46,618 nt of DNA from the NCBI GenBank assembly GCA_002162795.1, contig MAAY01000047.1, positions 1 to 46,618 of the forward strand, given 5' to 3'. Source of the stretch: Rhodobacterales bacterium 56_14_T64 (lineage in GTDB: Bacteria; Pseudomonadota; Alphaproteobacteria; Rhodobacterales; Rhodobacteraceae). The position numbers were made by a program, and so were the translations under genes. The notes below the pieces were generated by a model. The model saw only the letters and a list, made by a program, of their open reading frames with translations. It made no database searches and was not told the origin of the DNA. This document shows, piece by piece, positions 11,184-46,618 of this stretch (within the stretch, counting starts at the first letter, position 1; the number at the start of each line of letters is the position of its first letter).

Positions 11184-11930
11184 ATGAAAGTGTGGAGTCA
11201 ATTCAATCAGGCCGTTGCCAACCGCGCGCCGGCACCAGTCGAAAGCGATCCCAGTGATCAGGAATTTGAGAAGTTTATCTACCTGATTAGCCATGATGTG
11301 CGCGCTTCTGTCCGGGCTCTGATCGAGCTGCCACAATGGATCGAAGAAGATCTATTGGAGGAGGGCCGAGAACTGCCGGCAACAGTTACCAGAAGTATTC
11401 GAATGATGAACACGCATACGTTTCGTCTTGACCGGATGCTAAACGATTTACTAGTGCACTCGCGGATCAGCCGGATGCAGACATTCCGTGCGAACGACCT
11501 GAATGCAGCAATCGACACCGTGCTGGAAAAAGTGACTGTTCCAGAAGGGTTTAAGATAGAACGGGAACTGAATGGCCATAGTGTCTATATGGGGGAGCGG
11601 GACGTTCTCACCATGCTAGAGGCCTCCATTTCCAACTCAATCAAGCACCACGATCGCGAGTCCGGGACGATCCGGATATCTGCACAAGTGGGGTCTGGCG
11701 AATTGATCCTGGAAATCAGCGATGACGGTCCCGGAATCGACCCTGAATACCGCGAAAAGGTGTTCGAGGCGATGGCGATGCTCCAGCCGCGCGATGAAGT
11801 GGAGGGCTCCGGTATGGGGCTGACACATATTCGCAAAATTGCCGAAGACTGCGGCGGAAACGCTGAGTGGCTGGATGTGGACACTGACCGTGGCAGCCGC
11901 TTGGAAATTCGCTTGCCGCTCTATTCATGA
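11184..11930 (+). CDS. Sensor-less histidine kinase
   Basis: A 248-residue histidine kinase with only a short N-terminal tail before the dimerisation domain: the H-box FIYLISHDVRASVRAL (His about 37), an N-box EASISNSIKHHD, a D-box EISDDGPGID and a G2-box GSGMGLTHIRK of the HATPase domain. There is no signal peptide, membrane segment, PAS or GAF domain, so it is a cytoplasmic kinase whose input must come from a partner. The AGGAGG at 11176-11181 is only two bases from the ATG at 11184 but eight from an in-frame GTG at 11190, so the true start may be the GTG. A single-domain response regulator follows. Confidence 0.85.
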   Translation: MKVWSQFNQAVANRAPAPVESDPSDQEFEKFIYLISHDVRASVRALIELPQWIEEDLLEEGRELPATVTRSIRMMNTHTFRLDRMLNDLLVHSRISRMQTFRANDLNAAIDTVLEKVTVPEGFKIERELNGHSVYMGERDVLTMLEASISNSIKHHDRESGTIRISAQVGSGELILEISDDGPGIDPEYREKVFEAMAMLQPRDEVEGSGMGLTHIRKIAEDCGGNAEWLDVDTDRGSRLEIRLPLYS

Positions 11931-35494: not shown

Positions 35495-36072
35495 CGTAAT
35501 CCATCCTCTCCTTTGATGTCCCAGGCTTCCAACCCGCCAGAACGGGAGTGGACACGAGCACCCGTTGTCATCACCAATGCAAAGGCCAGCTCATTTGCGC
35601 GAGGCGCGTCGTTACAGCCGACTTCCATTGAATCGAAATGGCTACGTACATAAGCAGCGTTGATATGGGTGATCGGCACATCCAGCCGCGCGCCGACGCC
35701 GCCGACCTTTTTCGACGAGGGCACAATGGCGTTGGCAGTGCCCAGCGACTGCCGCATGGCATAGCCGCCCGGCGCATGCCACAGCGCGCCATGCTCCAGC
35801 TCTCCGCCTTCGCCGACCAGCGACCCCTTGCCGTAGCCTTCGATCTTGTCCGCGCCACCCAGCATTTCGAGCAACCGTTCAGCCATCTCCAGGCCCAGAG
35901 GTTTCAGATCCTCCATGAAACCTTGGATCTCGGGCTCATAACGACCTGCGAACGGGTTCTTGATGATGGCCAACATCGACCCGCGCAGCAGGGGCGTCTC
36001 GGCAACCGGGCCGCCTTCGTGGTGAATTTCTTCACGCGATGAGACGATTTTTCGGATGATTAATTCAGGCAT
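35491..36072 (-). CDS. AA_synth (DUF1185) family protein, first paralogue
   Basis: A 193-residue paralogue of the next gene with the same conserved blocks (NPFAGRY, YGKGSLVGEGGELEH, SSKKVGGVGARLDVP, NDAPRANE). It differs mainly in the central segment and the N-terminus. I use the ATG at 36072, which overlaps the UPF0280 stop by eight bases, rather than an in-frame ATG at 36114. Two coupled, divergent copies suggest a heteromeric complex. The function is unknown. Confidence 0.8.
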   Translation of the reverse strand: MPELIIRKIVSSREEIHHEGGPVAETPLLRGSMLAIIKNPFAGRYEPEIQGFMEDLKPLGLEMAERLLEMLGGADKIEGYGKGSLVGEGGELEHGALWHAPGGYAMRQSLGTANAIVPSSKKVGGVGARLDVPITHINAAYVRSHFDSMEVGCNDAPRANELAFALVMTTGARVHSRSGGLEAWDIKGEDGLR

Positions 36073-36922
36073 GTAAAAGTGTCCTGTGAGAGGAGGTGAA
36101 ACCGGTTTGGCCAACCAGCGTGCTTTCGCCCTGCAAAAACAGCGCTGCGGCGATGATATGGCCTGCGTGTTGCATGTCCAGGGCGCGGTGATATCCGGCC
36201 TGCAATGCTAAATGGGTTTTGGCTAGGGTAAGCGGCTCGCAATGTGTCACCACAGACTGCTCGCCCAGATCGCTATCGCTTTGCAGCTGGTCAGCGGCGC
36301 GGCGGTGAATTCCCGGGTGGCCCGGCAGATCCACGTCATTGGCGATCAGGGTGGCTGCGGCATCGGCTTGTGCGGCGCTTCGGGCCAGCACCGTGACACT
36401 GTCGGCAATACCCAGGGACAGGCTGCGACCATGGCGACCCGAGGTGGCAATGCCACTGATCCCGTCCGAATGGCTGATTTCAAGGCGGCCAAGATCACGG
36501 CCCTCGTGATCCATCATTGCACTGGCAAAGCTTTGGCCAAGGGCAAGGTGCAGGGCAATATCACCGCCGTTATTGACATAGGCGCGTTGCAATGGTGTGG
36601 CGGCACACATCGCGGTCAGAATGGTATCCGCCACCGCCCCCGCCACCGCTGCCATAGGGGTGATGAACTTGGCGCAAAGTGGTCGCGTCGCCTGATCCAT
36701 GCGCTGGGCAATTGCGCCCCGCGGCAGGGATGAGCCCGGCTCGAGCTGTGAGCGCAACAGCGGCAGTTCGCTCACCAACTCGTCCAGCACAGTTTCAAAC
36801 CGCGCTTGCGCGGCGGCAAAGGCCGCCTCTCGGTCACCATCCGCCCCAATCACCAGATCAATTGGCCCGTGCTGCAAATGCAGCCGGGTGCCACAGGGCA
36901 ATAGGGTGGCCAGCGGTGCCAT
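36065..36922 (-). CDS. UPF0280 family protein (ApbE-like fold)
   Basis: A 285-residue UPF0280 protein. The stretch FITPMAAVAGAVADTIL (about 87-103) followed by AYVNNGGDIALHL (about 114-126) matches the pattern of the ApbE flavin-transferase superfamily, where a GGD-type motif helps bind flavin and metal. No signal peptide is seen, so it is cytoplasmic, unlike classical ApbE lipoproteins. Its start overlaps the stop of the 6-hydroxynicotinate reductase gene (TGATG). Because E. barkeri Hnr carries covalent flavin, a role in flavinylating Hnr is an attractive inference. The family's activity is not established to my knowledge. Confidence 0.78.
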   Translation of the reverse strand: MAPLATLLPCGTRLHLQHGPIDLVIGADGDREAAFAAAQARFETVLDELVSELPLLRSQLEPGSSLPRGAIAQRMDQATRPLCAKFITPMAAVAGAVADTILTAMCAATPLQRAYVNNGGDIALHLALGQSFASAMMDHEGRDLGRLEISHSDGISGIATSGRHGRSLSLGIADSVTVLARSAAQADAAATLIANDVDLPGHPGIHRRAADQLQSDSDLGEQSVVTHCEPLTLAKTHLALQAGYHRALDMQHAGHIIAAALFLQGESTLVGQTGFTSSHRTLLHA

Positions 36923-38412
36923 CAGCTGCGCTCCCGTGCCCAGCGATAGTTGGTGTGATCCATCGGGTCGGGTTGGTTGCCGATCTGAGCCACCTTGCGG
37001 GTCTCAGCCGAGACAATTGCCGACACCTTTTTGACCTCGCTCATATGGCCGCCAAGTGTTGCGTAATCACTCACCCGCATGGTGAACTCGATCGGCGCCA
37101 CCAGTGCTGGCGTGGGCACATAGCCAAACGAGCCGGTCGGCATGTCCAAAACATCCACCATCACGGTGATACCGCCGCCGGGCCAAACATAGGATTCAGC
37201 ACCACCACAAGACACAAAGGTCAGCGAGTCCTTGACCGACCGGGTCAGCCGCACCGGATTTTCCGTCACCCCGGCGCGCAAGCTGCCACCGGCACCGCCC
37301 ATGAACAGCACCGAACAGACCGAGGGTTCGCAGTTCTCGGCAATCAAGTCCGCCGAGGCCCTGAGCCGGTCAGGGATGGTGGCCGCCTGTGGCACCAGAT
37401 CGCCGTCCAGCACAAAATAGGCATATTGCTCGCCAGTGGTCGAGACCATCAGCAGACTCAACCCCTCCCAGGCGATTTTGGCGTTGAACGGGCCAAGGAT
37501 GGTCAGCGGATCCTCAATATCCGTGCCACCCCAGCCAGTACCAGGCTGGGCCACCTGAAAATAGCGGCCAGGAGTGGACTTGCGGCCCTTGATCTTGATG
37601 CCGGTGGGCGCAACATCCAGCAACTTGCCGGTCTGGTGCTCGGACAATACGCCAGTGATATGGTCATCCACCACCACCACCTCGTCGACATGGCCGACCC
37701 ATTGCTTGGGGAACATGCCGATGGTGGCAGAGCCACAGCCCACTCGCATCAGTTTCTCTTCCATGCCATTGACCACAGGAGGCTTACCAGCCTCGACCAC
37801 GACGGTTGTTGTGTGATCTTCGTCGCCGATCTCCATTTCAACAGCTTCGCGGTTGCACAGGCGCAGCAGTGCGTCACAGGTGACGCGGCCCTCTTTCTTG
37901 GACCCACCGGTCAGGTGCTCGACCCCGCCCAGTGACAACATCTTAGAGCCATATTCGCTGGTCATCACATGGCCGATGGGTTCACCGTTCACCCGCACCA
38001 CATCGCACTCGTGTCCGATGTGGCGGTCAGTGTCGATCTTCACCTTCACGCCGCAGTAGGAAAAAATGCCCTCGGTCACCACGGTGACCATATCAACGCC
38101 TTCGATTTCCTGACTGACAATGAACGGCGCGGGTTTGTAGTCGGGATAGGTGGTGCCAGCGCCGACGGCCGTAACAAAGGGACGGTCGCCCTGAACGATG
38201 TCGCCATTCCAGTCATCCGGCTGGCTGTCGCTCAGGAATGGCACCAGCTTGTGGCTGGTGTTTTCAATAATGGTCAGCGGATCCAGTCGCACCAGATCGC
38301 CGCCATGATTGGCATAGCGGTCACAGGCGCCGATTTTACCGTCCGCGATGAAACACATCACCGGGCAGGCATCGCAGCGAATTTTCTCAGGCGTCACGCG
38401 GTCAGTTGCCAT
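36922..38412 (-). CDS. hnr: 6-Hydroxynicotinate reductase-like iron-sulfur flavoprotein
   Basis: A 496-residue protein resembling E. barkeri Hnr, which reduces 6-hydroxynicotinate to 1,4,5,6-tetrahydro-6-oxonicotinate and contains covalent flavin plus one [2Fe-2S] and two [4Fe-4S] clusters. The N-terminal Cys block CDACPVMCFIADGKIGACDRY (C13, C16, C20, C30) and further Cys at about 120, 136, 179, 186 and 226 fit several clusters. GCGSATIG (T230) resembles a flavin-attachment Ser/Thr-Gly-Ala-Thr motif. The start overlaps the preceding hydroxylase gene by 11 bases. In the pathway it stands between the hydroxylase and enamidase. Confidence 0.85.
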   Translation of the reverse strand: MATDRVTPEKIRCDACPVMCFIADGKIGACDRYANHGGDLVRLDPLTIIENTSHKLVPFLSDSQPDDWNGDIVQGDRPFVTAVGAGTTYPDYKPAPFIVSQEIEGVDMVTVVTEGIFSYCGVKVKIDTDRHIGHECDVVRVNGEPIGHVMTSEYGSKMLSLGGVEHLTGGSKKEGRVTCDALLRLCNREAVEMEIGDEDHTTTVVVEAGKPPVVNGMEEKLMRVGCGSATIGMFPKQWVGHVDEVVVVDDHITGVLSEHQTGKLLDVAPTGIKIKGRKSTPGRYFQVAQPGTGWGGTDIEDPLTILGPFNAKIAWEGLSLLMVSTTGEQYAYFVLDGDLVPQAATIPDRLRASADLIAENCEPSVCSVLFMGGAGGSLRAGVTENPVRLTRSVKDSLTFVSCGGAESYVWPGGGITVMVDVLDMPTGSFGYVPTPALVAPIEFTMRVSDYATLGGHMSEVKKVSAIVSAETRKVAQIGNQPDPMDHTNYRWARERS

Positions 38413-41152
38413 GTCTTAGATCCTTGATTGCAGCACGGACGCGTGCAGGTGTGGCGGGGACTTCGGTCAGTCGCGCACCAGTAGCGTCTTTAATCGCGTT
38501 GAGAAGTGCCGGAGCGGTGGGGATCAGCACATGCTCCCCCAGTCCCTTGGCCCCGTAAGGGCCGTGAGCGTCTGGAACCTCGATAATGAGGGTCTCGATT
38601 GGGGGAATGTCGCCTATAGTTGGGATCAAATAATCGTGCAGGTTTTCGGTGCGTCCGGGGATGTATTCTTCCATCAGCGCCATGCCCAGCCCCTGCGCGA
38701 TACCGCCTTCGACCTGACCTTCGACTAGCATTGGGTTGATCGCCTTGCCAACATCATGTGCGGCGACAAACTTGATCGGAGTCACCGTGCCCAGCGCCAT
38801 GTCGACCTCGACCACCACCAACTGCGCGGTATAGCCAAACTGCGCATAGGGCACGCCCTGACCGTTGACATCCAGCGGCTTGGTCGGCGGGTCATAGGTT
38901 TCCTGCGCGCAGAAAACATAGCCCTCGTCACACTGCGACAACGAAGACAGGTTGATCCAATGGCTTGAGGCCCCGTCATTCACCTCGATCATCTCGCCTG
39001 CAAATTTCAGGTCTGCGGTCTGGCTGGCGTTGACCTTGGCCAATATATCGCCGCGCAGGGCGTCTCCGGCCAGTCTGGCGGCATTGCCCGAAACAAAAGT
39101 CTGGCGCGAGGCCGAGGTTTTGCCGGCGTCCGGAGTTACATCGGTGTCCGCCCCAACAAGCTGGATCTGTTGCACCGGTACGCCCAGCGCCGTGGCGAAA
39201 ATCTGAGTGATGACGGTATTGGCCCCCTGACCAATGTCCATAGCGCCCTGATGCAGAACAATCGTTCCGTCAAACCGAACACCCGCCTTGATGGTTGATG
39301 GATTGGGCAGCGAGGTATTGCCGCAGCCATACCAGCCCGCCGCAATCCCAACGCCACGCTTGTGCACTGGGTTGACCGCGTTGAACGCCGCTACAGCCTT
39401 GCGTTCGCTGTCCCATGCCGGGCGCAACGCCTCAAGACAGGCTTTGATGCCGACACCCTGTTCAAACACCTGACCGCAAACCGTGGGCGTGTTGTCCTGC
39501 AGCGCGTTGCGCAGGCGAAACTCCAGCCGGTCGATCCCCAGCTTGTCGGCCAACTCATCAAACAGACTTTCCTGAGCAATGGCCGATTGTGGCACCCCAA
39601 ATCCGCGAAAGGCACCCGACGGCGGGTTGTGGGTGTGAATGGCGCGGGCCTCGGCCTGGTAGTGTGGGATGCGATATGGGCCGGATGCATGAACAGGTAC
39701 GCGGTTGGACACTGTCGGTCCCCAACTGGCGTAAGCGCCGGTGTTGAAATCGCCGGAGAAATCAAACCCGGTGATGCGTCCGTCGCGGGTGGCACCAATC
39801 TTCAGCTGGATGTCTGAAGGGTGCCGTTTGGTGGTCGATTGCATGGATTCTGTGCGCGAATAGGTAATCCGCACGGGCTTGCCGGTCTTCAGCGCCGCCA
39901 GCGCCAGATAAGGCTGTACTGAGATGTCCAGTTTGGAACCAAAGCCGCCGCCAACACCGGTCGGAACAATGCGGATATTCCTGCGGTCCATGCCCAGAAT
40001 GATCTCAAGCGCCTCAAGATCCATCACCGGAGCCTGGGTGCAGGCGTGCACTTCAACCCGGCCATTTACAACTTCAGCATAGCCCGCTTCGGGTTCGATA
40101 TAGGCGTGTTCGACAAAACCGGTTTGAAACCGTCCCTCAACACAGACATCCGCCGATGCCAGCGCCTGTTCTGCGTTGCCTTGTTTGACAAAGCCGCCAC
40201 ACATCAAGTTGCCATCACGCCCCGCGTGCAATTGCGGAGCCTGCGCCGCCTTTGCCTCGGCAACGGTTCCGGCGCTGGGCAGCTCGGTCCACTCAATAGG
40301 GAAACCTGTGGTGTCGAACGCCTGCACAACATCCGGGTGCAGGATCACCGCAGCCACGGCCTCGCCCCGGAACCGGGTCTCTCGCTCAGCAAAGACCGGC
40401 TGATCCACGAATGCCGGGATAACGCCAAACAGGTTTTTCCCTGGCACATCCGCACTGGTCAGCACGGCTTCAACGCCCGAGGTCTGCGCCTGCCACTGCT
40501 CAGTATCGCCAAAGGTGAAACTGGCCCGCGCAAAGGGCGAGCGGATGATCTGGACTACCAGAGCATCACGCGGGGCGACATCATCGCCGAATGTCTCGGT
40601 TCCATTGACTTTGTTCGCGCCGTCCAGCCTGCGGATCGGCGCGCCAACCTCGCCATTGCTCGTCGCAACAGGTTGCTCCGCGTGGCTGCAAACCACCGCA
40701 TCAATGATCTTGCGATACCCGGTGCAGCGACACAGCACGCCGCCCAAAGCATCCTGCACCTGTTCACTGCTCGGTTCAGGCGTTTGCCGCAGCAACGCCA
40801 CCGCTGACACCATCATGCCAGGCGTGCAAATCCCACATTGCGCCGCACCGTGGTTTTGAAAACTCTCCGCCAGTCGCAACGCATCAGCATCTTGCCCGGC
40901 CAAACCAGCAAGCGTCTCAATGTGCCGACCAGCGGCCTGCTGCGTCGGGGTGAGACAGGCGCAGACCGGGGCGCCGTCGAGCAAAACCGTACAGGCACCG
41001 CAATCACCGGCATCGCAGCCGATTTTCACATCCCGCTGACCCAATCCCTCGCGCAGGGTTTGCGACAACCGCTCTCCGGCCTTGGGGGCGGTGCTGACAT
41101 TCTGGTTGTTCAACAGGAAGTCTGTCATGGTTTCTGAGACCTGCTTATCCAT
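38402..41152 (-). CDS. Molybdenum hydroxylase with fused 2Fe-2S domain (nicotinate dehydrogenase-like)
   Basis: A 916-residue xanthine dehydrogenase-family protein fusing an N-terminal two-cluster 2Fe-2S domain (C46, C51, C54, C66; C106, C109, C141, C143) to a full molybdopterin domain (from about 165). Landmarks are VGGGFGSKLD, the Moco-binding PPSGAFRGFGVPQ, GAMDIGQGANT and the C-terminal GAKGLGEHVLIPTAPALLNAI with the catalytic Glu. The same fusion occurs in E. coli XdhD. Context predicts hydroxylation of nicotinate, or a related ring, at the carbon next to nitrogen. The ATG at 41152 overlaps the FAD-subunit stop by eight bases; 41128 is a possible alternative. Confidence 0.88.
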   Translation of the reverse strand: MDKQVSETMTDFLLNNQNVSTAPKAGERLSQTLREGLGQRDVKIGCDAGDCGACTVLLDGAPVCACLTPTQQAAGRHIETLAGLAGQDADALRLAESFQNHGAAQCGICTPGMMVSAVALLRQTPEPSSEQVQDALGGVLCRCTGYRKIIDAVVCSHAEQPVATSNGEVGAPIRRLDGANKVNGTETFGDDVAPRDALVVQIIRSPFARASFTFGDTEQWQAQTSGVEAVLTSADVPGKNLFGVIPAFVDQPVFAERETRFRGEAVAAVILHPDVVQAFDTTGFPIEWTELPSAGTVAEAKAAQAPQLHAGRDGNLMCGGFVKQGNAEQALASADVCVEGRFQTGFVEHAYIEPEAGYAEVVNGRVEVHACTQAPVMDLEALEIILGMDRRNIRIVPTGVGGGFGSKLDISVQPYLALAALKTGKPVRITYSRTESMQSTTKRHPSDIQLKIGATRDGRITGFDFSGDFNTGAYASWGPTVSNRVPVHASGPYRIPHYQAEARAIHTHNPPSGAFRGFGVPQSAIAQESLFDELADKLGIDRLEFRLRNALQDNTPTVCGQVFEQGVGIKACLEALRPAWDSERKAVAAFNAVNPVHKRGVGIAAGWYGCGNTSLPNPSTIKAGVRFDGTIVLHQGAMDIGQGANTVITQIFATALGVPVQQIQLVGADTDVTPDAGKTSASRQTFVSGNAARLAGDALRGDILAKVNASQTADLKFAGEMIEVNDGASSHWINLSSLSQCDEGYVFCAQETYDPPTKPLDVNGQGVPYAQFGYTAQLVVVEVDMALGTVTPIKFVAAHDVGKAINPMLVEGQVEGGIAQGLGMALMEEYIPGRTENLHDYLIPTIGDIPPIETLIIEVPDAHGPYGAKGLGEHVLIPTAPALLNAIKDATGARLTEVPATPARVRAAIKDLRHGN

Positions 41153-41978
41153 TTGGTAGCGCCGCCTTATGAATGGCTCGGGTAATTTGCTCGGAGACCA
41201 CGTCCAGCCGGTAATCCGCATCGGCGCGGATATCCGAGATCGGCGACAGCGGGCTAAGGTGGTCGGGTGTAATGACCACCTGCTGCGGCATTTGCCCGAT
41301 CAGATCCGCCTCTAGCCCGATCAGCCGCTTGGCCACGGGCGAGCAGGCTCCAACGGCAACACGGGCAAAATCAATCCGACCCTCGCCGTCACAGCCGATC
41401 ACCACCGCCACCATCGTGATCGAGATCACCAGATACTTGCGACTCCCCAGTTTCTCAAACGCGCTGCGGGTGTGCGGCGGCAGGGCGGGAATGGTGATTG
41501 CAGTGACCAGCTCACCGGGACGTAATTGGGTGCGACGAGGGCCAGTGACAAAATCCTGCAGTGGCATTTGGCGTATTTCACTTGGGCCCGCCAGCTCGAC
41601 TTCGGCACCTAGGGTCAGCAGCGGCGGCATGCCATCTGCGGCAGGTGAGGCATTGCAGATATTGCCCGCAATTGTGCCTGAGTTTTGGATTTGCACACTA
41701 CCAACATCACGCGCTGCGGCCTGTAGGGCTGCAAAACACGTCGGCAGATCTGCCCTGGCAATCTCGCTCCAGCTTGTCGCCGCCCCAATGCGTAACCCGG
41801 TTGAGGTCCACTCAAGCCCCGACAGCCCATCGATGCGCGTGATGTCCAAAAGCCCTTTTTGCAAAGGCGTCTGGCCGCGTGCGGGAAAGGCATCGGTGCC
41901 GCCGGCAATGATATTCAGGTCTTCAGATGCCATCAGATCAAGGGCTTCGTTCAGCGCTGTTGGGGCGAAATACTGCAA
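41145..41978 (-). CDS. FAD-binding subunit of the molybdenum hydroxylase
   Basis: A 277-residue CoxM/XdhB-type FAD subunit with the family motifs IIAGGTDAFPA and SGTIAGNICNASPAADGMPPL. Electrons would pass from molybdenum through the fused 2Fe-2S domain to this flavin. The start is most likely the TTG at 41978, placed six bases after GAGGAGGAG. The longer frame from ATG 42041 would put the shared 17-bp element inside the coding sequence. It is the first gene of the catabolic operon. Confidence 0.88.
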   Translation of the reverse strand: MQYFAPTALNEALDLMASEDLNIIAGGTDAFPARGQTPLQKGLLDITRIDGLSGLEWTSTGLRIGAATSWSEIARADLPTCFAALQAAARDVGSVQIQNSGTIAGNICNASPAADGMPPLLTLGAEVELAGPSEIRQMPLQDFVTGPRRTQLRPGELVTAITIPALPPHTRSAFEKLGSRKYLVISITMVAVVIGCDGEGRIDFARVAVGACSPVAKRLIGLEADLIGQMPQQVVITPDHLSPLSPISDIRADADYRLDVVSEQITRAIHKAALPNG

Positions 41979-42007
41979 AAAGTCTCCTCCTCGGACACCC
42001 GAAAACA

Positions 42008-42024
42008 TTGTTTGTATGCAAATG
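42008..42024 (-). promoter_or_regulatory. Shared 17-bp element, copy 3 (hydroxylase operon)
   Basis: Read in gene direction the site is CATTTGCATACAAACAA, 29 bp ahead of the TTG start of the FAD subunit. It differs from copy 1 at three positions and from copy 2 at two. The core TTTGCATACAAA is a near-palindrome. It is probably the operator controlling the six-gene catabolic operon. Confidence 0.7.
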
Positions 42025-42220
42025 GTATTGCGGGAGCTCAAACCTTGTCAAACGGAAAACTGTTTCCAGCGCCATCTTCAGGGAAATCTTGCAAAGCTGC
42101 GATATGTTTCGCGGGCAATTCCTCAGCGTTTGAGACTTGCGGGCATCAAGGTGATAGGGGGAGTATTGGTTCTGACCGCGGGACGGAAAGATCAGATGTC
42201 AGAGGCGATATTACCGCCAA

Positions 42221-43012
42221 TTAGCTTTGGGCAAAAATGCTGCGCCATGCCTGCAGGGCAGCGTCCAAATTCTGAACTGACAGGGTAAGAAGCAAGATCT
42301 CATTGCGGTCGCAAGCCACAATAACCCGCATGTTGGGGGACATCGTCAGCACCATGCAACTCGGCGCCTGGTCTGGTACTTGCGGTGTCGGGCGGCGCTT
42401 TTGTCTAGCCACCGCGTCTGAATTTGCCAAGTCCGTTAAGCGCTGGATCTGATCATCAGGCCCGAAGCTCTCCGTCTTTGCGGTGCTGCCGTCCTGGAAC
42501 ACCCAAGCCTCGGCATCAGTTCCAATCGACGACATCAAACTGCGCAATCGGCCTTGGTCCTGCTGCGTGGTCAGTGTTTCCATCAGCAGTCTTGCCGAGC
42601 AGCTTTCGCTCTCAGCACTAATCTCGCAGGGCTGGCGCGTGATCCGAAAACCAGCGCCCTTGTTGGACAAAACCAACTGGCGCAACCGCTGTGCATAGAT
42701 CTGGGCGATAGAAGTCTGGTTGCCGGCAGGGGACGAGACACCGCTCAGATCCAGCGACAAAAGCCTGCGATGGGACACCGTCAATTCAGCAACCGCCCGT
42801 TGATCAAAATACAACGTCAACTGCCGGGGTAATATAGTTTCATCAATCTCACGCAGCAAGCTGTGCATCAGGTCAGCACGCCCCTCAAAGGCATCTTGTT
42901 TCTCAGCAAGCAGGCAGGATGCATCCGCCGCAAACCGGGCAAGCACCTGTTTCAAGGCGCCGTCGCGATCATCAACTGTGATAATGCTTTCTGCGGTCGA
43001 CGATTGCATCAT
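42221..43012 (-). CDS. Unknown protein with C-terminal Roadblock-like module
   Basis: A 263-residue cytoplasmic protein that I do not recognise by family. The N-terminal third is helical with a strand pair (RQLTLYFDQRAVAELTV). From about residue 150 the predicted order of helix, hairpin (TDAEAWVFQDGSTAKTESF), helix (DDQIQRLTDLAN), strands (MVLTMSPNMRVIVACDRNEILLLTL) and helix (NLDAALQAWRSIF) resembles a Roadblock/LC7 domain, a fold that often binds and regulates GTPases. ATGA overlap with the gene before it indicates coupling. It is the last gene of the GTPase operon. Confidence 0.6.
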   Translation of the reverse strand: MMQSSTAESIITVDDRDGALKQVLARFAADASCLLAEKQDAFEGRADLMHSLLREIDETILPRQLTLYFDQRAVAELTVSHRRLLSLDLSGVSSPAGNQTSIAQIYAQRLRQLVLSNKGAGFRITRQPCEISAESESCSARLLMETLTTQQDQGRLRSLMSSIGTDAEAWVFQDGSTAKTESFGPDDQIQRLTDLANSDAVARQKRRPTPQVPDQAPSCMVLTMSPNMRVIVACDRNEILLLTLSVQNLDAALQAWRSIFAQS

Positions 43013-43398
43013 GCGCCCCCAGCCAGATCGTTTAGAAGGTTGATGGCCGGGGTGATCAGGGTTTTGGCGGTTGTCTCGCTGTCACAGACGCACAAAATTG
43101 CATCGCATGCAGTGTCTTGGCCTGCATTCTGGGCCCGGATGTATACTCGGGTTTCCTGCGGTGTGATCACCATCACCTCGGGCACAGTGCGGTCGCGCGG
43201 CGAAACTTGGCTTGCAAGCACATCCTGCAAGCCAAAGCCATGATCCGCTTGCGCGCAAAGCTGATCCAGATATTCCTGAGGCGGCTGCGATGCGGCACTA
43301 CTGCGCAGCACCAACCGGGTGCCAAGGTCGCCAAAGGCAACGAGATCACAGCCGGGGGCAGCCTGGCGCATGGTGTCAAGCCGCTCTGCAATGTTCAT
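43009..43398 (-). CDS. Small Roadblock/LC7-like protein
   Basis: A 129-residue protein whose layout fits a single Roadblock/LC7 domain: helix (NIAERLDTMRQAAPG), hairpin (CDLVAFGDLGTRLVLRSS), helix (PQEYLDQLCAQAD), strands (PEVMVITPQETRVYIRAQ; CDAILCVCDS) and a final helix (AKTLITPAINLLNDLAG). This is a fold-level guess without a diagnostic motif. I use the ATG at 43398, which has GGGGGAA ahead, instead of a GTG at 43413. It follows the two GTPase genes and overlaps the next gene, so a regulatory or scaffold role for the GTPases is inferred. Confidence 0.6.
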   Translation of the reverse strand: MNIAERLDTMRQAAPGCDLVAFGDLGTRLVLRSSAASQPPQEYLDQLCAQADHGFGLQDVLASQVSPRDRTVPEVMVITPQETRVYIRAQNAGQDTACDAILCVCDSETTAKTLITPAINLLNDLAGGA

Positions 43399-43479
43399 GC
43401 CGGATTCCCCCACGCGTGGCAGAACTCAGCAGGTAGCTTGCTGAATACCACGCCAGTCTGACAAAGGGGGGGTGAGGCT

Positions 43480-44409
43480 CTACTCATCCAGAACGTCCAA
43501 TCGCGGTTGGCGAACACTGGGCCGCGCACCTTGTCGTTGCGCCTTTACCCGTCTGGGCACCACATAGTCGCCACCCGCAGGAACGGCGGCGGGTGCAGCC
43601 TCTTGTTGGGAGTGTTCGGCGGCGTCGCGGACTTCGCCGATAGCAAAAACTTCGGCCTGACTGATCTGCTCGGGTGCGCTGTCAGCTGGCACAGCAGAGG
43701 TGTTGGATGCCGACACCCCACGATGAGGCTGGTTCAGCAGGGTTTCGACTAGAAACTCAACCAGCTTATCGGCTCCGCTGTTGCTCCAGGCCTCCATGTC
43801 ATCGCCGGCATCCAAGGCCTGGCTGAGGGAGACCGGGAAAATGCTGTCGAACAGCCCGTCGGTTTCTTTGCCGACGCGGGCATTGACGCGGGCACGGTCG
43901 CGGTCCGAGCGGAGTTTGTCGAAATGGGTGATCAGCAGAATATTGGGCCCACTCACGCCATCAGCGATGCTTTCCCAGACGGCAGCTTCGGACTGGCGCC
44001 AGGCCTGGGTGGCATGGGTACACCAGATCACCCCGTCCACATGCGGCATCAATGATTGCCAGACTTCGGCAGGCATGTTGGGGTCGGAAATACCCGGCAT
44101 GTCGATCAGATCGCACAGGGTCAGCGCATCAGAGGGAAAGAACAGACGGATCATCGCCGTTGTTTCCATCGCAACCTCGTTCAGATCTTCGGGGTTGATG
44201 GCACTCTGGGTGCCGTCGTTGGATACAACATATGCGGCTTCTTCGCCGTAAGAAATCCACACGGGGGGCAGTCGGGTTGCAGTCACTCGCGTCGGCAGGA
44301 TCTGACGGCCAACCAGCAGGTTGGTCAGGGTGCTTTTGCCGGCGCTAAATTCGCCCATCAGGGCAAGGCGCGGTTTACGCTGCGGCTGCGGGCTCTCTGT
44401 GCTGTGCAT
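43480..44409 (-). CDS. Dynamin-family-like GTPase, short form
   Basis: A 309-residue GTPase. P-loop GEFSAGKST (residues 19-27), a switch I Thr in RVTATRLPP, DMPG (103-106) and, at the G4 position, THFD (161-164), which departs from the usual N/TKxD. After about residue 225 there is no assembly stalk, only a disordered acidic-then-basic tail (ending QRQGARPSVRQPRLDVLDE). It therefore looks like a G-domain-only partner of the long GTPase ahead of it. The ATG at 44409 has AGGAGA at good spacing; ATG 44427 overlaps the previous stop and is the alternative. Confidence 0.8.
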   Translation of the reverse strand: MHSTESPQPQRKPRLALMGEFSAGKSTLTNLLVGRQILPTRVTATRLPPVWISYGEEAAYVVSNDGTQSAINPEDLNEVAMETTAMIRLFFPSDALTLCDLIDMPGISDPNMPAEVWQSLMPHVDGVIWCTHATQAWRQSEAAVWESIADGVSGPNILLITHFDKLRSDRDRARVNARVGKETDGLFDSIFPVSLSQALDAGDDMEAWSNSGADKLVEFLVETLLNQPHRGVSASNTSAVPADSAPEQISQAEVFAIGEVRDAAEHSQQEAAPAAVPAGGDYVVPRRVKAQRQGARPSVRQPRLDVLDE

Positions 44410-44423
44410 GGCTGTCTCCTGCG

Positions 44424-46487
44424 TCATGCTGTGTATTTTTTGAGTGTGCTTAATGCGGTATCCGTCGTCTGCTGCCGCTGTTGTTCGTCTTCGTTCGAGA
44501 ACAGTTTTTGCATATCGTTGCCCTGACGACTGTGATCGGCGATTTCCATTAAGATATCGCGTTGTTCGTCAAAGAAAGTCCTGAGCCGGGCCACGGTATT
44601 GGTATGCGCATCTGCCGTTTGCACAAATTTGAGCTGGGTCATGAAGTCCTCAGTCTCGGCGCAGATCAGTTTTTGGAAGCTTTTGACAAAGGCTTTGTAG
44701 CCCCGGGTGCGACGCCACCACGACGACCACCAGCTATCGTTGAAATCCAGCGCAATGGTCTGCCCAAGCGCCACCGGTGAGGCCACAAGGGGGACTTCGG
44801 GCACCGAAATCTGGATGCCCTCAACGGCCGATCCAAACCCAGTATAGAGCAATTCGGCGACCTCTTGCACGGCCTGTTCATAGCGCGCCAGTGCTGTTGT
44901 CTGAACCCGGCTGCTCATGACGGAGTAGGCGGATTTCAACAGCAACCGCAGGCCCGCAGGATCATATTCCCAAACGCATTCTTCGCCCCAGCGTTCCAAA
45001 TGTTCGATCAGCGAATGTGAGGCGCGGCTGATAAAGGTCGCATGTGCCCGGTCGGCGCGGTCTCGATACGCTAGGAAAACAGTGTCGATGTCTTCTTCAA
45101 GGGCTTGCAGATTGGACGCCGCGATCTGATCAAACCGGGTTTTGATGTCGTGCATGCTCAGGTTAGATCCCTGCGCAGCACCGTTGATCATAATGGATCG
45201 TGCGGCCTGTTGCCCAGTGACCAAGGTGATGGCAGAACTGGCAACCCGCGCCAGTAAAGGCGCGCCCAGATCCTTGACGATCCGAGTTGAGATTGATCGC
45301 AACAGCGCGGGCAACCCGGACAACTCCCAGACCATATTCTGCGAAGACTGTTCCGAGTTTGCGGCCTCAGGATTGGCTTCGGCCCAGTTCAGCAAGGCGG
45401 CACCGCTGGCGGGTTCCATCTCTTCCAGCTCACCGGTCAGCACCTTGCCTGCCCAATAGGCGCTGCCAAAGATGATCTCGGCGTCTTTTGGGCCGTGATG
45501 GGTGTCCAGCGTCTGGCGAATGCTGGCCTCAATCTCGGGGATCTGCCGGGCCGGGTCGGCCAATTCATCGATCCGGTTCACAAAGATCACCACCTCACGC
45601 GATTTGAGGTTCGAGATCATCCGGATCAGCCCCATATCAACCGAGGTCAGCGCCTGACTGGCCGACAAAACCACCACGCAGATGCGACTGTCGCGGATCG
45701 CCTGAATGGTGACCTGTTCGCGCATCATGAAGGTGTCATTCACACCCGGAGTATCGCGCAGGCACAGGGGGATGGGGACGGACTGGCTGTTCAGGTACAG
45801 ATCGGCTGACCGGGTGATATCGGCAAACCGTCCCTGTGTGTCATCGCCGTCCATCCCCGGCTCCAGATCGAAGTCATCACCGAGGCAGATGTAACGTTCG
45901 ATCAGGTTCTTATCAAAATACTCGTACTCGTGGGTTTGGCCCATCAGCAGTTCGAATTTGCGCCCCAACCGACTGCGCGAGCGCTCGCGCATCTGCTCGA
46001 TCTGGGTCTGGATCTTTTGCAGCTCACTTTCGGCGCCAGCCCGCCCGGCCATCTCGCCGATACGACCACCTTTGGTCAGCAGGCGGTCCCATTCCTGTTC
46101 GGTCATGAACTGGAAACGCGCACTTGTTTCAACACGTTGATCGCCCGGCGTCAGGTGTAGCGAAGTCACCACGGACGTCCAGGGGTTCACATCCGAGGGC
46201 AGCAAATCAGCCCAGCCGCCCATGGCGTTGACCAGCGAGGTTTTGCCCGATTTCACCTGCCCCAACAGGGTGATGCAAGGCTCGAAGCTGCTCAACTCCT
46301 TTTTCAGGCGCGGCAGAGTACGTGCGGCCTTGTCGCCCAACACGCCGGACAGCGAGTCCAACGCCGTCTCAAGCTCACCCATCTGGGTGGCGAACGCGGC
46401 GAGGGGTTCCATACCGGCGTTCAAATTGCTGGGTCGCGCGGCGGCGCGAATGTTGGTCATACTGTCAATCCGAGGCTGCATGTTCAT
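44424..46487 (-). CDS. Bacterial dynamin-like GTPase, long form
   Basis: A 687-residue dynamin-like protein. P-loop GQVKSGKTS (76-84), switch I Thr near 104, DTPG (245-248) and NRID (304-307) give a complete G domain, with a charged helical insertion at about 130-185. Residues 400-550 are helical, fitting a stalk. The segment NDSWWSSWWRRTRGY (583-597) is a Trp/Arg-rich element well placed to be a membrane-inserting paddle, followed by a helical return to the C-terminus. There is no signal peptide or true transmembrane helix. Dynamin-like proteins remodel or tether membranes and often work in pairs, as with the short GTPase encoded next. Confidence 0.82.
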   Translation of the reverse strand: MNMQPRIDSMTNIRAAARPSNLNAGMEPLAAFATQMGELETALDSLSGVLGDKAARTLPRLKKELSSFEPCITLLGQVKSGKTSLVNAMGGWADLLPSDVNPWTSVVTSLHLTPGDQRVETSARFQFMTEQEWDRLLTKGGRIGEMAGRAGAESELQKIQTQIEQMRERSRSRLGRKFELLMGQTHEYEYFDKNLIERYICLGDDFDLEPGMDGDDTQGRFADITRSADLYLNSQSVPIPLCLRDTPGVNDTFMMREQVTIQAIRDSRICVVVLSASQALTSVDMGLIRMISNLKSREVVIFVNRIDELADPARQIPEIEASIRQTLDTHHGPKDAEIIFGSAYWAGKVLTGELEEMEPASGAALLNWAEANPEAANSEQSSQNMVWELSGLPALLRSISTRIVKDLGAPLLARVASSAITLVTGQQAARSIMINGAAQGSNLSMHDIKTRFDQIAASNLQALEEDIDTVFLAYRDRADRAHATFISRASHSLIEHLERWGEECVWEYDPAGLRLLLKSAYSVMSSRVQTTALARYEQAVQEVAELLYTGFGSAVEGIQISVPEVPLVASPVALGQTIALDFNDSWWSSWWRRTRGYKAFVKSFQKLICAETEDFMTQLKFVQTADAHTNTVARLRTFFDEQRDILMEIADHSRQGNDMQKLFSNEDEQQRQQTTDTALSTLKKYTA

Positions 46488-46541: not shown

Positions 46542-46618
46542 TCAATGAGAGATGTCATCGGCGATCTCCCGTTTTAGCTGCAGCATCAGGGTCACGGCAT
46601 CGACGGCAGCATCTTCAC
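46542..46618 (-). CDS. 3' end of an unknown gene upstream of the dynamin operon
   Basis: An open minus-strand frame enters from the right edge and ends in TGA at 46542-46544. The visible part is about 24 residues, an amphipathic helix-like acidic end (VTLMLQLKREIADDISH). It lies 54 bp before the long GTPase start and in the same direction, so it is probably a member of the same operon. The family cannot be determined. Confidence 0.5.
   Translation of the reverse strand, partial: EDAAVDAVTLMLQLKREIADDISH

Follow-up and report, generated by a model that had tools for sequence, protein, structure and literature searches.

An eight-gene operon of Rhodobacteraceae that combines a bacterial dynamin pair with Roadblock-like proteins and a Ser/Thr kinase, FHA and PP2C trio

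We analyzed a window of 46,618 bases from Rhodobacterales bacterium 56_14_T64 (GenBank assembly GCA_002162795.1, contig MAAY01000047.1, positions 1 to 46,618), in which four close-packed genes on the minus strand occupy positions 42221-46487. They encode a long dynamin-like protein (DLP), a short dynamin-type GTPase (GTP2), a Roadblock-like protein (c3) and a two-domain protein (c4). A preliminary description, made from the sequence, had presented them as a four-gene module. The genes are real, but the unit is larger, and c4 has an extra N-terminal domain. The four genes are the 3′ half of an eight-gene operon with the order Ser/Thr kinase-FHA-PP2C-GTP1-DLP-GTP2-c3-c4, where GTP1 is a third gene of the GTPase fold. 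The locus may encode a dynamin pair under phospho-control, with a degenerate GTPase and a Roadblock pair as its gate, a reading to which we give a little less than an even chance. The parts belong to known families, and their combination appears to be undescribed.

The proposal that the four genes form one operon was confirmed by their common strand and tight spacing, the gaps being −4 bases between DLP and GTP2, 81 between GTP2 and c3, and −4 between c3 and c4. DLP (44424-46487, minus strand) has 687 amino acids, GTP2 (43480-44427, minus) 315, c3 (43009-43398, minus) 129 and c4 (42221-43012, minus) 263. The ATG start of c3 at 43398 agrees with its relatives; the list of open reading frames had given a GTG at 43413. 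The window ends inside GTP1, whose 3′ end lies at 46542-46618 (minus strand), and the contig extends to 68,949 bases. A stretch of the same genome that reaches upstream of the window (L104, G000:C61:40001-60000; L and G numbers denote our loci and genomes) contains, up to its position 11448, four more genes in the same direction: GTP1 (401 amino acids, including a run of unknown residues), PP2C (340), FHA (441) and a Ser/Thr kinase (472). From the kinase trio through GTP1 to DLP, successive genes are separated by 29, −92 (start uncertain), −4 and 54 bases. Unknown bases inside this GTP1 (ten X in translation) start just past 46618, and because the run begins about there, the window edge resembles an assembly or masked gap. 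Pfam searches on the relative L055 found kinase, FHA, PP2C and Dynamin_N at the corresponding places, and all eight genes are also annotated on Leisingera plasmid NZ_CP041163.1, with GTP1, c3 and c4 labelled as hypothetical. A scan for promoters and terminators gave about the shuffle level (4 vs. 3.1 and 10 vs. 9.4).

Relatives were collected by scanning genome contigs with 25 aligned DLPs, and the best 80 of 539 confirmed relatives were compared. Most of them bear the names of Rhodobacteraceae or Roseobacteraceae members, and one metagenome-assembled genome (L169) is titled only Proteobacteria. The full eight-gene order was found in 66 of these 80 loci (66 of 79 if L170, where no DLP frame could be called, is set apart), so the four genes of the window are kept together in relatives as had been anticipated. 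A contig end was reached in 11 of the 14 others (L113, L117, L129, L143, L151, L154, L165, L170, L173, L176 and L184), and the order of L181 differs by an extra GTPase frame. Two real exceptions were left. The operon of Marivita geojedonensis (L171) has no room for GTP1, which was searched at the operon only, and both c3 and c4 are missing downstream of GTP2; a search of the whole genome, run without a positive control, matched neither. The locus of Tritonibacter aquimaris (L145) lacks c3, and its c4 frame is shortened to 162 amino acids, covering model positions 3-142 of 254; a genome search, also without a positive control, gave no c3 match and only this shortened c4. The absence of c3 together with a c4 that ends at position 142 is what a pairing of c3 with the C-terminal half of c4 would predict. 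A further set of 54 neighborhoods (L050-L103) covers family genomes and includes second as well as distant copies of DLP; the order is complete in 26 of them.

DLP and GTP2 both match the Pfam family Dynamin_N (PF00350; 48.4 and 50.3 bits, cut-off 27), and the GTP1 of L055 reaches 27.5 bits against the same cut-off. DLP carries the motifs GQVKSGKT (G1), DTPG (G3) and NRID (G4). Each of these patterns, sought anywhere in the protein, was present in 133 of 134 DLP frames, a total that is not a genome count because 10 DLPs belong to both locus sets. When the DLP profile was compared with solved structures, the top relatives were 5owv (a GTP-binding protein) and 2j68 (a bacterial dynamin-like protein), which we take to be Campylobacter DLP1 and a protein from Nostoc, respectively. 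The Trp-rich paddle candidate noted earlier was located as WWSSWW at residues 586-591 (44715-44732, minus strand). Among the 25 aligned DLPs, W586, W587 and W591 are invariant and W590 is nearly so, and the pattern WWxx[W/F]W occurs in 120 of 134 frames; the 14 frames without it are all from L050-L103 and are mostly distant DLPs, with one fragment. Judged from this conservation, the stretch is a candidate for membrane insertion or a paddle. GTP2 (GEFSAGKS, G1; DMPG, G3) had been read as a short GTPase without a stalk, which is consistent with the poor conservation of its tail past the G domain. PADLOC matched part of DLP to LeoA (32.9 bits) and LeoBC (27.3 bits), and these matches likely reflect generic dynamin similarity.

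GTP1 and GTP2 were assigned with position-based profiles; the first labels had been mixed because the iterated profiles converged. The two are paralogues by hhalign (99.6%). The P-loop pattern was found in all 127 GTP2 relatives and D-x-P-G in 122 of them. For GTP1, the corresponding counts were 99 and 7 of 112 over all proteins, and 67 and 4 of 68 within 68 operons. By these motifs GTP1 is a degenerate paralogue of GTP2 which has kept the P-loop and mostly lost G3.

Neither c3 nor c4 reached any curated Pfam, NCBIfam or PADLOC family, and their profiles had only chance matches to PDB sequences (best E 0.49 and 0.54). The AlphaFold model of c3 has a mean predicted local distance difference test (pLDDT) of 90.3 and the order a-b-b-a-b-b-b-a of helices (a) and strands (b). 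Its best Foldseek match was 3kye (E 9.9e-6, template modeling (TM) score 0.73-0.80), and MglB was also matched (1j3w and 3t1s). All 50 matches listed were Roadblock, MglB, Ragulator/MP1-p14, Rag-complex, dynein-arm or doublet-microtubule entries. We then compared the c3 profile with 30 canonical Roadblocks, taken from 52 matches listed. The score was 25.8 over 115 columns, with an hhalign probability of 24%; the maximum of 100 column shuffles was 15.7, and five unrelated profiles gave 12.2-16.8. The model fold together with the profile similarity supports well that c3 is Roadblock-like. The cut-off of the Pfam Roadblock family PF03259 was not reached by c3, as only one of 60 c3 sequences matched it, at E 0.3. 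PF03259 was found in none of 100 genomes of the bacterial family, while 3 of 14 control genomes had it. The c3 protein represents a Roadblock-like family overlooked by Pfam in a bacterial family with PF03259 in 0 of 100 genomes. A Pfam match of c3 to Sf6 terminase (23.3 bits) was rejected, since it is below the cut-off of 27 and appears in only one of 60 relatives.

The AlphaFold model of c4 has a pLDDT of 90.9 and a predicted TM-score (pTM) of 0.72. The Roadblock strand order lies in its C-terminal domain (about residues 153-263), where residues 155-260 repeat the order of c3; the class of the N-terminal domain is uncertain. Two Foldseek rows reached E 0.001, namely MON1-CCZ1 (2.4e-4) and Fuzzy-Inturned (5.1e-4), and further rows included GATOR, LAMTOR and Roadblock2/3 chains and bacteriophytochrome chains, with low TM-scores by query of about 0.2-0.3. 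The C-terminal half scored above 60 of 60 shuffles both against the Roadblocks (16.4, shuffle maximum 13.8) and against c3 (16.2); the N-terminal half did not do so. An hhalign comparison of c3 with whole c4 had no significance, and PF03259 was not among 25 of the 26 families listed for 60 c4 sequences. The model and the comparison with shuffles make the C-terminal half of c4 a moderately supported Roadblock candidate. The preliminary description had thus read the order of strands and helices correctly for both small proteins; its check on predicted structures, set beforehand, gave a clearly Roadblock-like outcome with c3 and a partly Roadblock-like one with c4.

The three upstream proteins have conserved patterns of their families. 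The kinases have the VAIK-type Lys in 97 of 105, HRD in 103 of 105 and DFG in 105 of 105 sequences, and the PP2C pattern DGMGG is present in 108 of 110. In the FHA proteins, GRG was found in 108 of 109 and SR-HA in 102 of 109, and a linker motif, KTRLLGF, in 97 of 109. The conserved Thr of this motif is a likely candidate for a phosphorylation site.

To describe the distribution of the genes, we searched 198 genomes of the family, one per genus. DLP was found in 49, c3 in 43 and c4 in 41 of them; the c4 of G062 was missed in this search and found at its locus. All 43 genomes with c3 and all 41 with c4 have DLP (Fisher’s test with kinship ignored, p-value 2e-37). In samples of the class, the DLP profile (E 1e-20) matched 2 of 337 genomes and the c3 profile 2 of 289; in both cases these were the genome of the window and G448, a member of its family, and none lay outside the family. 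Among 72,556 plasmid records, 19 matched, 18 of them over at least 80% of the query, with copies in Leisingera and Ruegeria; the 19th, from Calditerrivibrio, is a distant dynamin. A pattern scan of viral contigs gave 43 pattern matches and zero confirmed relatives.

The genes also occur in rearranged and reduced loci. A GTP1-like gene adjoins c3-c4 in L084, L086 and L191; in L095 the match of such a gene is weak (30 bits). In L099 (5467-8802), L098 and L084, c3-c4 stand with a gene for a dual-specificity-type phosphatase and a P-loop gene of about 400-500 amino acids. The kinase trio was not seen within the fetched stretch of L083, L084, L098 and L099, and it stands near dynamin genes in different orders in L081, L086 and L087. 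DLP-GTP2 without c3-c4 was found in L094, L096, L097 and L101, from genomes without any c3 or c4 match, and also in L088, L093, L100, L102 and L193, where c3-c4 are elsewhere in the genome. In G003, the sole c3-c4 match is remote from the DLPs: it lies at 3.378 Mb on a contig of 3.559 Mb, and they are near 0.30 Mb. In G168, one c3-c4 pair adjoins DLP, and a second is on a contig with FHA and GTP1 but no DLP in the fetched stretch. The pair and DLP are on separate short contigs in G061 and G024, maybe because of assembly breaks.

The flanks of the operon vary. A xanthine-dehydrogenase-type gene set, named from sequence, follows c4 in the window (36065-42041, minus strand) and in L105, L106 and L116, and a similar set (L190, 12865-18711) follows the detached c3-c4 of G003, two genes further on; these cases are too few for a functional reading. 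Response regulator, histidine kinase and autoinducer synthase genes, upstream or downstream, were found in the flanks of 18, 15 and 16 of 80 loci, respectively; their naming comes from Pfam on L121 only (L118 14345-19465, L121 14648-18342, relatives). In one genome group, mreB and mreC are directly downstream of c4 (L074 13169-17719; L070, L071 and L075 by cluster), joined in L074 by the gene of a penicillin-binding protein.

From this gene traffic we infer three layers of what would be one membrane-remodeling machine with a control circuit of its own: a phospho-switch, a gate of GTP1, c3 and c4, and a working pair of DLP and GTP2. In the working pair, DLP would contribute an intact G domain and the Trp-rich membrane-insertion candidate, and GTP2 a stalkless G domain. 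GTP1 probably binds nucleotide or acts as a scaffold, without normal hydrolysis. The c3 protein and the C-terminal half of c4 may pair in the Roadblock manner and dock on GTP1, and the resulting complex would gate the assembly or the GTP hydrolysis of DLP-GTP2. The kinase may switch the machine upon an envelope signal, with the FHA protein as the reader and the PP2C phosphatase resetting it. A fuller version, which we put forward tentatively and consider somewhat doubtful, is that the Roadblock pair sits on the catalytically degenerate dynamin paralogue in a Ragulator-like role and relays a Ser/Thr phosphorylation signal to the active dynamin pair, so that membrane fusion, fission or tethering is switched in Rhodobacteraceae; this would be a signaling machine of a new bacterial class.

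The gated-pair proposal is favored by the conserved gene order, the co-occurrence of c3 and c4 with DLP, the remote c3-c4 of G003, the losses in L171 and L145, the GTP1-like genes beside c3-c4, the kept patterns of the kinase trio, the paralogy and motif loss of GTP1, and the correlated pairwise distances among the eight proteins (r 0.78-0.91, 68 loci). Several observations weigh against it. In the main operon, c3 comes after GTP2 and not after GTP1. No GTP1 was recognized beside c3-c4 in L098 and L099, the GTP1 assignment in L085 and L086 comes from modest scores, and L085, L087 and L189 carry c3-c4 between two DLP-GTPase pairs. Six of the 198 genomes have DLP without c3 or c4, and as the L171 genome also keeps DLP without them, the Roadblock part is not required at every dynamin locus. 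G058 has c3, with no c4 found. The sequence evidence for the Roadblock half of c4 is weak (P about 0.02), and the score of this half, 16.4, is not above that of an unrelated kinase-profile control (16.8). Correlated distances would also be expected from shared inheritance. The genome results of L171 and L145 help the proposal and the control score of c4 weakens it, and the two about balance.

The Roadblock proteins could instead act directly on DLP or GTP2, as a GTPase-activating protein (GAP) or co-GAP in the manner of MglB and MglA, with GTP1 as a side component. The c3 model matches the MglB structures 1j3w and 3t1s, c3 is immediately after GTP2 in the main operon, L090 and L189, and MglB is described as the Roadblock GAP of MglA in excerpts of PMC9481161. 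However, in L084, L086 and L191 a GTP1-like gene is next to c3-c4 at a site apart from the DLP pair or past it, GTP1 and c3-c4 are missing together from the L171 operon, and DLP-GTP2 loci without c3-c4 exist. We regard a direct GAP action as rather unlikely. Another explanation is a defense against phage or membrane damage, with the kinase trio as the sensor of infection and the dynamin pair sealing or closing membranes. A Bacillus dynamin reportedly has a role concerning phage, and the patchy presence (49 of 198 genomes), the plasmid copies in Leisingera and Ruegeria and the weak LeoA match of DLP (32.9 bits) would fit such a role. Defense is nevertheless distinctly improbable, as matches in the class samples were confined to the family, no relative was confirmed in the pattern-scanned viral contigs, PADLOC had no match for c3 or c4, and the neighbors are common to some clades (mreB-mreC, quorum-sensing genes).

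Kinase, FHA and PP2C proteins also control type VI secretion, so the trio might be a switch of that kind which merely neighbors the dynamin genes. The loci L083, L084 and L099, without the trio in the fetched stretch, would agree with this. However, it is very unlikely in view of the position of the trio upstream of GTP1-DLP in 66 of the best 80 loci, the short gaps in the own genome, its place by the dynamin genes also in L081, L086 and L087, where the order differs, and the fact that none of six recurrent flanking proteins examined with Pfam is a secretion gene.

To our knowledge, the on/off switching of bacterial dynamins is a largely open question. Here, candidate regulators (a kinase, a phosphatase, a phospho-reader, a degenerate GTPase and a Roadblock pair) are encoded with their dynamin pair, and the natural reduced versions L171 and L145 allow comparison. 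No such operon was described in the titles and abstract openings of openly licensed PMC papers among the matches listed, which leaves absence in print unproven and agrees with the earlier statement that no described system joins dynamins and Roadblocks. Ragulator-Rag and the MON1-CCZ1-type Rab guanine nucleotide exchange factors, whose domains are called longin domains, also have several Roadblock/longin domains acting on GTPases, and they include the best structural matches of c4. They are eukaryotic and act on Ras-like GTPases, and the TM-scores of c4 are only about 0.2-0.3, so the likeness is likely an analogy.

According to excerpts of PMC6104087, bacterial DLPs are mostly encoded as pairs within operons. 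The paired bacterial DLPs (the Campylobacter pair, Nostoc BDLP and LeoABC) resemble our locus in their Dynamin_N G domains and two adjacent GTPase genes. In contrast, the second member here is a stalkless-looking G domain, a third, degenerate paralogue is present, and Roadblock-like proteins, kinase, FHA and phosphatase share the operon. The GAP1-N2 GTPase-centric conflict systems likewise contain GTPases, and excerpts of PMC7159879 describe one theme with a linked protein kinase and PP2C. However, they have zinc ribbons, FNIII and vWA proteins, the kinase theme is given there as restricted to actinobacteria, and the word “dynamin” is absent from the main text of that paper (PMC7159879). MglA-MglB shares with our locus a Roadblock-fold protein that is encoded with a GTPase, and the c3 model matches MglB. 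In the present operon, the GTPases are of dynamin type and not Ras-like, and there are two different Roadblock-like proteins, neither of which reaches the PF03259 cut-off. If the gated-pair proposal is true, Roadblock control would extend from Ras-like to dynamin-type GTPases.

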